This document shows, piece after piece, positions 31,762-64,000 of a DNA stretch of 64,000 bases. The stretch lies in the NCBI GenBank assembly GCA_947628535.1, contig CANRAF010000003.1:33953-97952 (forward strand), given 5' to 3'. Made by a program: the position numbers and the translations under genes. Numbering within the stretch: position 1 is the stretch's first letter; each line of letters opens with the position of its first letter. A model generated the notes under the pieces. That model had not been told where the DNA came from. It saw nothing but the letters and a program-made list of their open reading frames with translations, and did not search any database. Source of the DNA: an uncultured Bacilli bacterium (GTDB taxonomy: Bacteria > Bacillota_I > Bacilli_A > RF39 > UBA660).

Positions 31762-32445
31762 ATGTTTGAAGAAGAACCTAAGGAAAATCATAGAGCGTCA
31801 TTTACAATTTTAGGAATATTTGTTCTTTTGTTAACAGTAGTAGGTGTTGCTATAGCGGCATATACTTGGACTTATACAAGTAATAATGCAAATAGTATTA
31901 GTACAGGTAATATTTCAATGAGTTTACTTGAATCAACAGATACTATTAGTATTGAAAATGCTTTACCTATGTCAGATGATAAGGGAAAACAGTTAAAAAA
32001 TAATGGAACTTTTGATTTTGCTGTTACAACTGAAGCAAGTGGACAACCTGGTGATATAAATTATAAATTATCTATTACTGAAGATAATGCTGACTCAGAT
32101 TATACTTTGCTTAATAAAGAGCAAGTTAAGGTTTATTTAACTGTGTTAACAAATAATGAAGATGCCGAAAATGAAGTTTTGGAAACACAAGTTGTAAAAC
32201 CTACTAAAGTTAGTGATATTATTACTGAAAATAGCGATAATGAAACAGGGGTTTTAACCTTTGATGAAGGGCAAACACAACATCTTACTCATCACCATAA
32301 TAAAATAGGTGAAACTATAACAACAAAATATAGACTTAGAATGTGGATATCTGATGATGTCGATGCTTCAAATTGGAATGAAAGCACTAAATATCAATAT
32401 AAATTAAAAATAAATGCTTCAGGAAGTATAGATCCTATACAATAA
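31762..32445 (+). CDS. SipW-dependent TasA/camelysin-like protein, type A copy 2
   Basis: AAYTWTYTSNNANSISTGNISMSLLESTDTISIENALPMSDDKGK; KYRLRMWISDDVDASNW. Confidence 0.75.
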   Translation: MFEEEPKENHRASFTILGIFVLLLTVVGVAIAAYTWTYTSNNANSISTGNISMSLLESTDTISIENALPMSDDKGKQLKNNGTFDFAVTTEASGQPGDINYKLSITEDNADSDYTLLNKEQVKVYLTVLTNNEDAENEVLETQVVKPTKVSDIITENSDNETGVLTFDEGQTQHLTHHHNKIGETITTKYRLRMWISDDVDASNWNESTKYQYKLKINASGSIDPIQ

Positions 32446-32465
32446 TCTTTAGTGAGGTGAAAATT

Positions 32466-33221
32466 ATGGATAATAAAAAAGTTTTGACTATATCAATAGT
32501 TGCCGTTGTAGTTTTAGTTATTGCAATAATTTCAACATCTTATGCAACTTTTTCAGCACAAATTTCAGGGGAAAAAGAAAATAAATTAACAACAGGATAT
32601 GTAACATTAAAATGTGATGAAGAAGTTTTTACACTTAATGATACAAGTCCAATGACAGATGAAGAGGGAATAGCTCTTGAAAGTAATGAGGCGGTATGTA
32701 CTTTATCTTCTGAAATGAAAGGTGAGATGACCGTTGGATATGATATAGCATTAGATGATGTAGATGCTGAAACACCAGATGATGATTTAACAGAAAATGA
32801 TGTAAAAGTTCAAATTTATAAAATAACTAATGAACAAGATCCAGCACAAACAAAATATTTGCAAGGTACTAGTGAAAATACTGGAACGTATATTGCTAAT
32901 TTAAAAGAAAAATCTGGAACATACGATACTGAGAGTGTTGAAAATTATCTAATTGATTCTGACAAGATTACTGGTACTACTCAAGTTATATATAAAGTAA
33001 AGGCGTGGGTATCTAATAATAAAAATGGTGTAGAAAATATTCAAACTAATTCTGTTACTAATAGTGATGATGGTGTTTGTAGTAATTCTGAATATAATAC
33101 TCAAGCAGAATGTGAATCTGCAGGAGAAGTTTGGGGGAATAGTCAAAAATCTACTCAGACAGGAGGAACATTTAGTTTTAAACTTAAAATAGGGGCAACC
33201 CAAATATTAGAAGATGAATAA
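32466..33221 (+). CDS. SipW-dependent TasA-like protein, type B copy 2
   Basis: TSYATFSAQISGEKENKLTTGYVTLKC...CSNSEYNTQAECESAGEVWGN...GGTFSFKLKIGATQIL; ATG 32466 after GAGGTGA. Confidence 0.75.
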   Translation: MDNKKVLTISIVAVVVLVIAIISTSYATFSAQISGEKENKLTTGYVTLKCDEEVFTLNDTSPMTDEEGIALESNEAVCTLSSEMKGEMTVGYDIALDDVDAETPDDDLTENDVKVQIYKITNEQDPAQTKYLQGTSENTGTYIANLKEKSGTYDTESVENYLIDSDKITGTTQVIYKVKAWVSNNKNGVENIQTNSVTNSDDGVCSNSEYNTQAECESAGEVWGNSQKSTQTGGTFSFKLKIGATQILEDE

Positions 33222-33248
33222 AAGTAAAAAGCATTTTACTTTTTTTTA
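33221..33248 (+). terminator. Rho-independent terminator after A2/B2
   Basis: AAAAGTAAAA-agc-ATTTTACTTTTTTTT. Confidence 0.7.
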
Positions 33249-33285
33249 TTTATATGATAAATTTATATTATAGGAGGAATAGAAA

Positions 33286-33966
33286 ATGTTTGAGGAAAAA
33301 GAGAAAAATAAAAACCGCGGTTTAACATTTACTATTTTGGGAATATTTGTTTTATTATTAACTAGTGCAGGTATTGCTATTGCAGTATATACTTGGAATT
33401 ACACAAGTGATGAGAATAGAATAAGTACAGGTGACATTTCAATGAGTTTACTTGAATCAACAGATGTTATTAGTATTGAAAATGCTTTGCCTATGTCAGA
33501 TACAAAGGGGAAACAATTAGGAAAAAATGAATCTTTTGATTTTGCAGTTACTACGTATGCAAGTGGAAAACCTGGAGATATAAATTATAGTATATCAATT
33601 ACAGAAGATGCAGTTGATGAAGGGTATACTAAACTTGGAAGTGAAAATGTTAAAGTATATTTAACAGTTTTGCCTGAAAAGAGAAATGATGCGTATCAAC
33701 AAGAAATAGAAGTTGTTGCACCTACTAAAGTAAGTGAAATTATAAAAGAAAATAATACTGGTAATTTTACTTTTAAAGATGAACAATATTCTAAACATTC
33801 GCATACTTCTTCTGGTTCCACTATAACAACAAAATATAGACTTAGAATGTGGGTAGATAGCGAAGTAGATGCAAGCGATTGGAAAAAAGATTCTGATTCT
33901 AAATATCAATATAAATTAAAAATAGGGACTGCTGGCAGTATTAAACCTATTGGAGTAGTTGAGTGA
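33286..33966 (+). CDS. SipW-dependent TasA/camelysin-like protein, type A copy 3
   Basis: AVYTWNYTSDENRISTGDISMSLLESTDVISIENALPMSDTKGK; KYRLRMWVDSEVDASDW. Confidence 0.75.
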   Translation: MFEEKEKNKNRGLTFTILGIFVLLLTSAGIAIAVYTWNYTSDENRISTGDISMSLLESTDVISIENALPMSDTKGKQLGKNESFDFAVTTYASGKPGDINYSISITEDAVDEGYTKLGSENVKVYLTVLPEKRNDAYQQEIEVVAPTKVSEIIKENNTGNFTFKDEQYSKHSHTSSGSTITTKYRLRMWVDSEVDASDWKKDSDSKYQYKLKIGTAGSIKPIGVVE

Positions 33967-33979
33967 GGAAGGTATAATT

Positions 33980-34741
33980 ATGAGTAATAAAAAAATAATG
34001 GTATTATCAGTAGTTTCAGTCATAGTTTTAGTAATAGCGATAGTTGCAACATCATATGCAATGTTTACAGCAAATCTTAGTGGTACTAAAGCAAATGAAT
34101 TAACAACAGGATATGTAACTTTAAATTGTGAAGAAACAACATTTAAACTTGAAGATACAAGCCCAATGACAGATGCAGATGGTATAAAAATGGAAAATAA
34201 TGAGGCAATATGTAAGCTTACATCAACAATGAAGGGTACAATGACAATTGGATATGATATAGCGTTAGATGTGATTGATGAATCCCAAGAAGATGGGGTT
34301 AATGAAGATAATGTAAAAATCCAGGTTACTAAGTCAACTAAGGGAGCTGAGGAGCAACCAAAGTATTTACTAGAAACTGATGCTAATAAAGGAGTATACA
34401 TTAGTTCAATTCAGGATGAAACTGGGCAATATAATGATGATGAAGATCAGGGTTACAATTTAGATAGTGATACTATAACAGGTGATACAGAAATAACTTA
34501 TAAAATTAAAACCTGGGTTTCAAATTTAAAAACTACAGGAGCAGATGAGGAGGAAGTACCTAATATAAATGAAAGCAGTAGTTCTAGCACTTGTAGTAAT
34601 CCTCAGCTTAAAACAAAAGAGGAGTGTCAATCTGCTGGTGAGATTTGGGGAGATGAACAAACATCTACTCAAAAAGGAGGAACATTTAGTTTTAAACTTA
34701 AAATAACTGCAACTCAAGTATTAAGCGATAGTGGTGAATAA
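33980..34741 (+). CDS. SipW-dependent TasA-like protein, type B copy 3
   Basis: TSYAMFTANLSGTKANELTTGYVTLNC...CSNPQLKTKEECQSAGEIWGD...GGTFSFKLKITATQVL. Confidence 0.75.
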   Translation: MSNKKIMVLSVVSVIVLVIAIVATSYAMFTANLSGTKANELTTGYVTLNCEETTFKLEDTSPMTDADGIKMENNEAICKLTSTMKGTMTIGYDIALDVIDESQEDGVNEDNVKIQVTKSTKGAEEQPKYLLETDANKGVYISSIQDETGQYNDDEDQGYNLDSDTITGDTEITYKIKTWVSNLKTTGADEEEVPNINESSSSSTCSNPQLKTKEECQSAGEIWGDEQTSTQKGGTFSFKLKITATQVLSDSGE

Positions 34742-34871: not shown

Positions 34872-35531
34872 ATGAAAAAAAGAATTTTATTTATAATATC
34901 ACTATTTTTAATGATTACTGCTTTTATACCAAATGTTTTTGCAGCAACATATGGAGCTGTTACAGTTTTAACAAATCCAGATGATGTTGAAATAGTAACC
35001 AATAGGGGAAAGACTACTATTACTTATAAAAACCCTATAGATATTCAAATAGCAGAAGAGGATGAAACACTTGGAAGACCAGGTGGTTCTGGATGGCTTG
35101 GAATGAGAATAAACGCTCCATCAGACAGCAATGAAAATAGTTTAAAAGATGCAACATATTATTCAATTGTAGAAGGTGTTGGAGAATCTAAAGCTACTGC
35201 AGAAGTTAAAAAATTTTTAGATAAAAGAGATGGAAGTTGGTATATTGATATTTGGAGTGGTATTAGTCTTGATAGAATAAGAGAGGCTGAACAGAATAAT
35301 CTTAATTCAATTACAAGAGATTGGTATTTTGACTGGGATGGAAATGGAGTTTACGAACAAGAAGTTACAGTAGTTATGCCACTTATAAATATAAATTTAA
35401 CTGATGAAAATGGAAATGTTTTATATACTCCTGAAAGTATGAGCGAAAAAGTCAAAACTGAAAAATTGGATAATATACCGAAAACAGGATTTATTTATGC
35501 AATAGTAAATTATTTAAGTTATTTATTTTAA
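34872..35531 (+). CDS. secreted protein with C-terminal IPKTG motif
   Basis: Signal peptide MKKRILFIISLFLMITAFIPNVFAA; C-terminus KLDNIPKTGFIYAIVNYLSYLF; AAGGAG RBS. Confidence 0.65.
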   Translation: MKKRILFIISLFLMITAFIPNVFAATYGAVTVLTNPDDVEIVTNRGKTTITYKNPIDIQIAEEDETLGRPGGSGWLGMRINAPSDSNENSLKDATYYSIVEGVGESKATAEVKKFLDKRDGSWYIDIWSGISLDRIREAEQNNLNSITRDWYFDWDGNGVYEQEVTVVMPLININLTDENGNVLYTPESMSEKVKTEKLDNIPKTGFIYAIVNYLSYLF

Positions 35532-35534
35532 TGA

Positions 35535-35580
35535 GAAAGACTTTTAGATTTTGTTATTAAAATCTTTAATAGTCTTTTTT
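35535..35580 (+). terminator. Rho-independent terminator
   Basis: AAAGACT...AGATTTT-gttatt-AAAATCT...AGTCTTTTTT. Confidence 0.75.
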
Positions 35581-35611
35581 ATGTCAAAAAAGTATAAAAA
35601 TATAAAACAAC

Positions 35612-35641
35612 TTGACAATGCCCGGGGGGGGGTGATATTAT
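35612..35641 (+). promoter_or_regulatory. candidate phase-variable promoter: TTGACA, spacer with G9, TATTAT
   Basis: TTGACA 35612-35617; G9 at 35624-35632; TATTAT 35636-35641 (18-bp spacer) or GATATT 35634-35639 (16-bp spacer). Confidence 0.7.
35624..35632 (+). repeat. poly-G tract (9 G)
   Basis: CCC followed by nine G in an AT-rich intergenic region. Confidence 0.95.
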
Positions 35642-35667
35642 ATATGTATAAATATGAAAGGAGAGAT

Positions 35668-36654
35668 ATGATGAAAAAGAAAATATTGTTTATGGCATTT
35701 GCATTTGTAGTAAGCATGTTCATTGTTCCAAATGTTTTTGCAGCTAGTGTATCTGATATTAAATCATGGGGAGAAACAGGAACACATATTAAAGTTGAAG
35801 GAAGTGATAATAATTATACACTTACTTTAACAGGTGAACCAAAACAAGATCTTATTATTTCACAAGGAGAAACAGTTACCATTGATTTAGCAGGGCATAC
35901 ATTAACTAATTATACTAACAATAATTCTGTTATTACAATTAATTCAGGTGCTACAGTTACTATTATTGATAGTAGTAATGACGGAAAAATTAGTCTAAAA
36001 AGTGATGATAATGGCACTGCTCCAGTTATAAATAATGCTGGTACTTTAACTCTAGAAAATGGAACTATTGATTCTACTAAGGCTGGAAGTACAGGAATTT
36101 ATAACAGTGGAACATTAACAGTTGCTGGTGGAGAAGTTAAAACAAGTGTAAATGGCGCATGGGGTCTTACTAATGTAGGAACTGCGACTATTACAGATGG
36201 AACATTTACTCAAGGAAATGACTTTTCAGTAGTACTTAATGCAGGTACAATGACAGTTGAAGGTGGAAATTTTGTTGCTGCAGATGGTGGTTCACATAAT
36301 TCATTAATTACAAATAAAAACGATGATGGAACTGCTAGTATGACAATTAATGGAGGAACATTTGATAGTACAGGAATTTTCTATAATGAAGATGGAGATA
36401 GCATAGTAATAACAAGTGGAAATTTCGCAAGTGATGTTTCTGAGTACTTAGCTGATGGTCTAGTAATGGAACAAGATGAAGATGGTAATTTTATAGTAGT
36501 AGATGCTCCAGAAATACCTGACGATAATACAAATAGTGAAGAAAATAATTCTACTACTGTTGTAAACAAAGTTATAGATAAAACAAAACTTGATGATGTA
36601 CCAAAAACAGGAAGTATTTATTCAGTATTAAATTTCATGAATTATTTAAGATAA
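35668..36654 (+). CDS. surface protein, beta-helix-like repeats, C-terminal VPKTG motif
   Basis: Start MMKKKILFMAFAFVVSMFIVPNVFAA after AAAGGAG; repeated GTxTxxxGTxx/GGTF strands; C-terminus KLDDVPKTGSIYSVLNFMNYLR. The ORF-track start at 35551 is upstream of the promoter. Confidence 0.7.
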   Translation: MMKKKILFMAFAFVVSMFIVPNVFAASVSDIKSWGETGTHIKVEGSDNNYTLTLTGEPKQDLIISQGETVTIDLAGHTLTNYTNNNSVITINSGATVTIIDSSNDGKISLKSDDNGTAPVINNAGTLTLENGTIDSTKAGSTGIYNSGTLTVAGGEVKTSVNGAWGLTNVGTATITDGTFTQGNDFSVVLNAGTMTVEGGNFVAADGGSHNSLITNKNDDGTASMTINGGTFDSTGIFYNEDGDSIVITSGNFASDVSEYLADGLVMEQDEDGNFIVVDAPEIPDDNTNSEENNSTTVVNKVIDKTKLDDVPKTGSIYSVLNFMNYLR

Positions 36655-36659
36655 TAAAT

Positions 36660-36700
36660 AAGACTATTGAATATAATGTTTCAATAGTCTTTTTTTTGTG
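36660..36700 (+). terminator. Rho-independent terminator
   Basis: AAGACTATTGAAtataatgTTTCAATAGTCTTTTTTTT. Confidence 0.8.
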
Positions 36701-36733: not shown

Positions 36734-36762
36734 TTGACAATACCCGGGGGGGGGGTGATAAT
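36734..36762 (+). promoter_or_regulatory. candidate phase-variable promoter: TTGACA, 17-bp spacer with G10, GATAAT
   Basis: TTGACA 36734-36739; G10 at 36746-36755; GATAAT 36757-36762. Confidence 0.72.
36746..36755 (+). repeat. poly-G tract (10 G)
   Basis: CCC followed by ten G. Confidence 0.95.
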
Positions 36763-36785: not shown

Positions 36786-37808
36786 ATGAAAAATATTAAA
36801 TTTATGTTAGTGGCAGCTATATTTGCAGTATTTGGAATGGTAAGTGTAAATGCAGCAACACCACAAAATCTTTTAGATTGGAAGGTAGCAGATGGAACAT
36901 GTAGTAATAATGTTTGTGATTTAAAATTAAATCAAAAGGCGGTTCAAGATTTAGAAATTGGCGCTGGGCAAGTGGTTACACTTGATTTAAATGGCTTTGA
37001 ATTTACTAATTTTTCTGATGGTACATCAAATAAAGGTAAATTATCAGCTATTTGGATACTTTCTGGAGGAGAACTAACTATTAAAGATACGAATAGTAAT
37101 GGTACTGGGAAAGTATATATTTCAGGTGATGATACACTTCCTGCAGTTAATAACCTTGAAGGTGGAAAATTAACTATTGAAGGAGGTATTTTCGAAGCTA
37201 GAAAAGCCGGAGGAGATGCTATTCATAATAGTGGTGAATTAACATTTACAAATGGTACAGTAAAAACTACAGTAGATGGCGCATGGGGATTAGTAAATGA
37301 AGGTACAGCAGTAATCAACGGAGGAACATTTGATCAAGGAAATGATTATTCCGTAGTACTTAATGCTAAAGATATGACTATAAATGATGGAACATTCAAT
37401 GCTACTGGTGCAGGACATAATGCTGTTGTTAGTAACGTTGGTAAATCTTCAGATGCTCCAGCAAAACTTACTGTTACTGGAGGAGATTTTAATGCAGAAG
37501 ATAATGCTAAAATATTTTCTAATGGATTAAATGATGAAGGTGAGAATAGCACAATAGCTGTTAGTGGCGGTACATTTTCAAACGAACTAAAAGCAGAATA
37601 TTTAGCAGATGGTTTAGTAATGGAACAAGATGAAGATGGTAACTTTGTATTAGTAACTGAACCTGATGAACCAATTGATGATCCTTCAAATGATGAAAAT
37701 AATTCTACTACTATTGTAAACAAAGTTTTAGATAAAACAAAACTTGACGATGTTCCAAAAACAGGAAGTGTTTATTCAGCATTAAGTTTTATGAAATATT
37801 TAAGATAA
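36786..37808 (+). CDS. surface protein, beta-helix-like repeats, C-terminal VPKTG motif (paralog of 35668-36654)
   Basis: Signal peptide MKNIKFMLVAAIFAVFGMVSVNAA; DGAWGLVNEGTAVINGGTFDQGNDYSVVLNAKDMTINDGTFNA; C-terminus KLDDVPKTGSVYSALSFMKYLR; GAAAGGAG RBS. Confidence 0.72.
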   Translation: MKNIKFMLVAAIFAVFGMVSVNAATPQNLLDWKVADGTCSNNVCDLKLNQKAVQDLEIGAGQVVTLDLNGFEFTNFSDGTSNKGKLSAIWILSGGELTIKDTNSNGTGKVYISGDDTLPAVNNLEGGKLTIEGGIFEARKAGGDAIHNSGELTFTNGTVKTTVDGAWGLVNEGTAVINGGTFDQGNDYSVVLNAKDMTINDGTFNATGAGHNAVVSNVGKSSDAPAKLTVTGGDFNAEDNAKIFSNGLNDEGENSTIAVSGGTFSNELKAEYLADGLVMEQDEDGNFVLVTEPDEPIDDPSNDENNSTTIVNKVLDKTKLDDVPKTGSVYSALSFMKYLR

Positions 37809-37813
37809 TATAA

Positions 37814-37855
37814 AAGACTACTTGAAATTATTGTTTCAAATAGTCTTTTTTTTGT
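37814..37855 (+). terminator. Rho-independent terminator
   Basis: AAAGACTACTTGAAAttattgTTTCAAATAGTCTTTTTTTT. Confidence 0.75.
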
Positions 37856-37863
37856 GTTAATTA

Positions 37864-63419: not shown

Positions 63420-64000
63420 ATGAAGAAAATATTGTCTGGGGGGGGGGTATTAAATAAAGTAAAAGAATACTTATCAAAAGATATAAAAGAATATAATAAA
63501 GTATTCTTAGGTTTAGTATGTTTAATAATTCTAATGACAGCAGTATTTACATCACTTAAGATATCAAATTCATATGCAATATTTACAGATAGTATAAAAG
63601 GAAAGGAAACAATCACATTAACACTAGATAAGAATTTGGATAAAAGTGGGGCAAATAAGCCCGTTCTTTCTGATGCAATGGTACCAGTATATTATAGTGA
63701 TACAGACAAACAATGGCATAAGGCAGACGAAAATAATGAAGAGAAAGATTATAAATGGTATGACTATGATAAAAAGATGTGGGCAAACACTGTAACATAT
63801 GATCATACAAAATTATCAAATGAAAGTAAAACAAAAATAGAGGGAAAGACATTCAATGGAACAAGCGATTATGTAGATATGGGACATGAAAATGAGGATT
63901 TTGGTAATACAATCACTTTAGTGGCAAGATTTTCTTCAAATGGATATACTAGCAATGGTGGGCCATTGATAGATAATTCTGCCAATCCACAAGGTTTTGA
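63420..64000 (+). CDS. phase-variable SipW-type/LamG-like surface protein (partial, open to right edge)
   Basis: MKKILSGGGVLNKVKEYLSKDIKEYNKVFLGLVCLIILMTAVFTSLKISNSYAIFTDSIKGKETITLTLDKN...FNGTSDYVDMGHENEDFGNTITLVARFSSNG. Continuous with 10 G; absent from the ORF track because no stop lies in the window. Confidence 0.75.
   Translation, partial: MKKILSGGGVLNKVKEYLSKDIKEYNKVFLGLVCLIILMTAVFTSLKISNSYAIFTDSIKGKETITLTLDKNLDKSGANKPVLSDAMVPVYYSDTDKQWHKADENNEEKDYKWYDYDKKMWANTVTYDHTKLSNESKTKIEGKTFNGTSDYVDMGHENEDFGNTITLVARFSSNGYTSNGGPLIDNSANPQGF
63438..63447 (+). repeat. poly-G tract (10 G) within codons 7-10
   Basis: ATG AAG AAA ATA TTG TCT GGG GGG GGG GTA TTA AAT. Confidence 0.95.

Follow-up and report, generated by a model that had tools for sequence, protein, structure and literature searches.

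Slipped-strand change of promoter spacing belongs to a class of mechanism that is already known. In the vlp genes of Mycoplasma hyorhinis, the repeat is a poly-A tract that lies in the promoter spacer, with one such tract per gene. In Neisseria meningitidis, the porA promoter gives a high level of surface protein with 11 Gs, a 2-fold lower level with 10 Gs and a 13-fold lower level with 9 Gs (PMC3639595), and the optimum spacing reported for porA is 17 (PMC7864442). The first-pass annotation of the DNA studied here had compared one of its promoters with those of some Neisseria surface genes, and the comparison is apt for porA (PMC3639595). Among the papers searched, none linked RF39, the group to which this genome is assigned, with phase variation.

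Promoter architecture and the neighboring genes

The locus lies on the + strand of a 64,000-nucleotide stretch of DNA from an uncultured Bacilli bacterium, the whole of which we refer to as the window. It begins with a -35 hexamer, TTGACA (35612-35617), which is shared by 12 poly-G promoters of this genome. A linker, ATGCCC (35618-35623), leads to a tract of nine Gs inside the spacer (35624-35632), and the trinucleotide TGA (35633-35635) separates this tract from a -10 hexamer, TATTAT (35636-35641), which is a 5/6 match with a TG one base before it. The spacer to TATTAT is 18 bp, and an alternative -10, GATATT (35634-35639), gives a spacer of 16 bp. The first-pass annotation had proposed each of these elements, both spacer lengths and a terminator just upstream; its coordinates are all exact, both spacer lengths were borne out, and the terminator is real. 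This is an intrinsic terminator that belongs to the upstream gene (34872-35531); it lies at 35533-35585 on the + strand and has a T-run and an RNA fold of -15 kcal/mol (z -4.3). Downstream of the promoter, a Shine-Dalgarno sequence, AAAGGAG, precedes the start ATGATGAAAAAG at 35668. The gene (35668-36654, + strand; start ATG at 35668 or 35671) encodes a 328-aa VPKTG protein with a signal peptide and without a Pfam family. The CCC that stands before the G tract was considered as part of a hairpin and was ruled out, since related promoters carry CGT, GCT, CTT or CCT there.

A second gene of the same layout follows on the + strand. A terminator at 36655-36698 (-14.4 kcal/mol, z -5.8) separates the two, after which come a -35 TTGACA (36734-36739), a tract of ten Gs (36746-36755), and a -10 GATAAT (36757-36762) at a spacing of 17 bp, with an alternative TAATAT at 19 bp. 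This promoter precedes a 340-aa VPKTG protein (36786-37808), the gene for which has a terminator at its own 3' end (37806-37856; -14.8 kcal/mol, z -5.8). Since each VPKTG gene has its own terminator, and a further one lies upstream of the pair, each is probably a separate transcription unit. The promoter sequence that had been annotated at 35612 stands, and the G10 copy, a coding-type tract at 63438 and a genome-wide set of tracts, all absent from the earlier annotation, are to be added to it.

The two neighboring proteins are 50% identical to each other, and both have a signal peptide and the VPKTG motif; neither scores above the Pfam cut-off for any family. That they are surface proteins, as had been proposed, is plausible given the signal peptide, the motif and the presence of four sortase-family genes in the genome. 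A canonical sorting signal has an LPXTG-like motif followed by a hydrophobic stretch and a basic tail, but in both proteins the motif lies near the C-terminus with only about 13 residues after it, a short tail that is not canonical.

Three further observations concern related genes. The upstream gene (34872-35531) encodes the same kind of protein, with IPKTG near its C-terminus, and has neither a poly-G promoter nor a clear TTGACA. Positions 31762-34741 of the window hold four tandem genes for short membrane-anchored proteins of two alternating types, and neither of the two proteins scanned has a Pfam match. On the minus strand of L038, with its gene start at offset 7788, is a VPKTG paralogue whose promoter begins with TTGACAATG, as the poly-G promoters do, and runs without a G tract for 18 bp to GATAGT; it constitutes a natural fixed-spacer control.

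Poly-G tracts across the genome

The genome is a draft of 933 kb in 20 contigs with a GC content of 27%, at which about 0.18 tracts of at least eight Gs would be expected. We observed 23. Twelve of these sit between an exact TTGACA and a -10, ahead of a Shine-Dalgarno sequence and a gene, although the chance expectation for an exact TTGACA at 3-10 nt upstream of a tract is just 0.16% per tract. The 12 promoter tracts have 6, 8 or 9 bases ahead of the Gs and consist of G9 (n = 3), G10 (n = 7) or G11 (n = 2), with spacers of 16-19 bp that vary with the -10 chosen. Some of these promoters are paralogous. At least five types of product are encoded behind them, namely VPKTG, N_methyl pilin-like, zinc-ribbon membrane, LRR and SH3-repeat proteins.

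Most of the tracts that are not in promoters lie at the 5' end of long ORFs. Seven are at codon 7 of a common start (ATG/GTG AAG AAA ...), of which one is at the end of a contig, and others fall within ATP-grasp (sugar-transfer) genes and within an ORF on C15. The products of the coding-type loci include laminin-G and Listeria-Bacteroides repeat proteins of 872 to 2426 aa. Within the window, this type is represented on the + strand by ATGAAGAAAATATTGTCT-G10 (63420-63998, tract at 63438-63447), which is in frame (ON) and whose ORF runs past the end of the window; its start cassette is common to six other loci of the genome. Two coding-tract starts are out of frame by one G, at C1:148019 (987-aa ORF) and C5:17667 (928-aa ORF), so that in-frame and out-of-frame states coexist in the assembly itself. 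The genome has a MutS gene, and hypermutation is therefore not expected from that side.

As a separate observation, contig C4 carries two related genes (L034, 5751-7322 and 9056-10615) with a G10 tract about 75 codons into the ORF. The one gene of the pair that was scanned is of the ATP-grasp type associated with sugar transfer, which suggests that the pair may specify phase-variable surface glycans.

Distribution of the promoter type

Of the 295 genomes searched from the family to which this one belongs, 52 contain the pattern TTGACA-N5-10-G7-N0-6-TAT, and none contains the reversed control pattern. When the search was for G8 directly before TATNAT, there were 365 sites in 47 genomes of this 295-genome family versus 2 for the reversed pattern. 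Only 3 sites had poly-C in the position of the G8, indicating that the Gs of the tract are on the coding strand. The pattern is rarer in other families of the phylum, with 29 of 398 genomes positive in a count that includes family members. Relatives of the same genus have the same layout with other -35 hexamers, TTGATT in G003 and TTGCTT in G002, and the absence of the system from the genus, which zero matches to TTGACA might have implied, is thus ruled out. A scan of genome contigs gave matches, among those listed, in Bacilli, Clostridia, Lachnospiraceae, Helicobacter, Treponema, Streptobacillus and others; the pattern used for it is limited to spacers of at most 18 bp unless the linker has extra Gs, and the scan gives breadth and not frequency or spacer distribution.

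The family member G165 has about 76 G8-TATNAT sites, many of them at intervals of about 1.1 kb in tandem arrays, whose genes encode membrane-anchored proteins and have one promoter each. In the arrays examined (L348-L359, L365-L367), each gene has a terminator-like hairpin, TTGCAA, G9 and TATAAT, and many of the encoded proteins have GARAVVEI in common at their C-termini.

Across the family, an N-terminal hydrophobic segment is found in 142 of 153 distinct proteins behind poly-G promoters versus 63 of 177 background ORFs (Fisher p about 4e-29, with an effective n that is reduced by paralogues; p-values given here ignore kinship among paralogues unless stated). Pilin, SH3, LRR and Listeria-Bacteroides repeat proteins are among these products. 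With the pattern recurring genome-wide and family-wide and with clean controls, the proposal of a terminator-insulated, homopolymer-spacer promoter for a surface protein is well supported.

Tract length and spacer length

Tracts with the same flanks differ in length from copy to copy. In G016, one promoter sequence, TTGACAAATATGC-Gn-TATCCT or TATTCT (ATATAC in one copy), occurs with n = 9, 9, 10, 11, 11, 13, 14 and 14; same-flank copies have G11 or G12 in G244 and G9, G10 or G11 in G102. In all three genomes these are differences between paralogous copies within one assembly and not between cells. The tracts of G165 are G9 in 43 of the 44 examined, showing that one and the same genome can also have uniform tract lengths.

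Ordinary TTGACA/TATAAT-like pairs without poly-G at the same loci have a spacer peak of 17 bp, whereas the family's poly-G promoters have a mode of 19 bp (29 of 67), with 50 of 67 at 18-20 bp. Set against these distributions, the graded 16-18 bp range of the first-pass annotation is a guess at the set point. The longer spacers indicate that the assembled state may be mostly weak. Nineteen bp may be either a weak state or, as poly-G DNA is shorter per base pair, a near-optimal one; the sequence is compatible with both.

The 19-bp spacer is reached with a linker of 10 and G9 in 39 of 44 promoters of G165, and with a linker of 9 and G10 in 6 of 7 promoters of G138. The lineages that reach it differ in their -35 hexamers and linkers. 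Since different linkers and tract lengths both sum to 19 bp, total spacing would appear to be the conserved quantity. Across genomes, linker and tract length would be expected to compensate for each other, and the signal of this is weak (rho -0.25, p 0.16, permutation p 0.51).

Proposed mechanism and alternative explanations

We propose, with a probability of roughly 0.8, that the locus, one of at least 12 such promoters here, is a promoter-type contingency locus, in which a sigma-A promoter carries a slippery G9 in its spacer and slippage alters both spacing and transcription. Strand slippage during replication would add or remove single Gs, each such change would shift the distance between the -35 and the -10, and transcription of the downstream surface-protein gene would shift with it, leaving the protein itself unchanged. 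Coding-type tracts would switch other surface proteins by frameshift, and the two types together could give each cell lineage a different mix of surface proteins. The proposal builds on the structure of the promoter, its recurrence, its strand specificity, the length differences between copies and the surface-type products, all of which we observed. From these we infer slippage in vivo and its effect on transcription, with host immunity, phage or niche as candidate selective reasons. Four observations speak against the proposal: the near uniformity of the G165 tracts, the weak compensation between linker and tract length, the 19-bp mode, which is off the usual optimum, and the presence of MutS. 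On balance, these bacteria probably raise and lower their production of surface proteins through the gain or loss of single Gs, in the manner of meningococcal porA.

The explanation that competes best, though we consider it unlikely, is that the poly-G acts through DNA structure or protein binding, for example as A-form or G-rich DNA near the -10, as a site for a regulator or by blocking open-complex formation, and that its exact length is no switch. This would account for the position of the tract, which is directly next to the -10 in 47 of the 67 family promoters, for the near uniformity of the G165 tracts at G9, and for a preference for G over C on the coding strand (365 versus 3) that goes beyond what spacing needs; a non-spacing action has likewise been proposed for the poly-G over part of the -10 in Treponema pallidum tprL (PMC7864442). 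Such an element is harder to reconcile with the variation in length among same-flank copies, with different linkers summing to the same 19 bp, and with the placement of poly-G by the same genomes at 5' coding ends, where length alone can matter. A translational switch, in which the tract belongs to an upstream extension of the ORF (from TTG at 35551) and slippage shifts the frame and not the promoter, is very improbable. The mechanical ORF 35551-36654 does pass through the tract in frame, but this extended frame begins inside the terminator without a Shine-Dalgarno sequence, both the Shine-Dalgarno sequence and the signal-peptide start at 35668 come after the tract, and at the other 11 promoter-type loci the tract likewise lies between TTGACA and the -10, ahead of a start with a Shine-Dalgarno sequence. 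Finally, a sequencing or assembly artefact, for instance from two-colour poly-G base calls, is hardly credible: several contigs do stop at or near tracts (C19:1 and C12:82 are examples, and G066 and G137 have many), but dozens of independent assemblies have internal tracts whose flanks are conserved and whose position between the promoter elements is fixed, and the reversed and poly-C controls are almost empty.

Under the contingency-locus reading, a more specific and quite tentative idea is that the usual state of about 19 bp is mostly off, and that the infrequent deletion of one or two Gs activates a single member, or a few, of a large surface-gene family. If this were so, porA-type spacers combined with vlp-type arrays would form a general system of surface diversification outside the classical pathogens. 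On the main proposal, members of this uncultured, genome-reduced Bacilli family, which are mostly from animal guts by their record titles, can carry dozens of promoter-type contingency loci in one genome, and a single assembled genome would not reveal which surface proteins are expressed. The novelty lies in the lineage, in how many loci there are, in their mixture with tracts of the coding type, in the tandem arrangement and in the 19-bp mode, and the scale is unusual.

Comparison with known systems

The closest likeness is to N. meningitidis porA, in which poly-G also occupies the -35/-10 spacer of a surface-protein promoter of the sigma-70 type, with lengths of 9-11 and single-G steps (PMC3639595). 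Whereas porA is a single locus of a Gram-negative pathogen and has an optimum of 17, the present system is in Bacilli, with 12 promoters in this genome, up to about 76 in the relative G165, and a spacer mode of 19. Like the vlp system of M. hyorhinis, it comprises several surface genes with phase-variable repeat promoters (PMC3899988); unlike vlp, where the repeat is poly-A, it uses poly-G, serves many unrelated surface genes besides paralogues, and forms far larger arrays in G165. In T. pallidum, tprL and other tpr genes also have length-variable poly-G tracts of at least eight near the promoters of surface-protein genes, but the tprL tract covers part of the -10 (PMC7864442) and so leaves the spacing unchanged. 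The Campylobacter phasome resembles the present genome in having poly-G contingency loci for surface functions genome-wide (PMC6321876), and coding-type tracts are found here too; that phasome is of the coding type, however, while about half of the tracts described here are of the promoter type.
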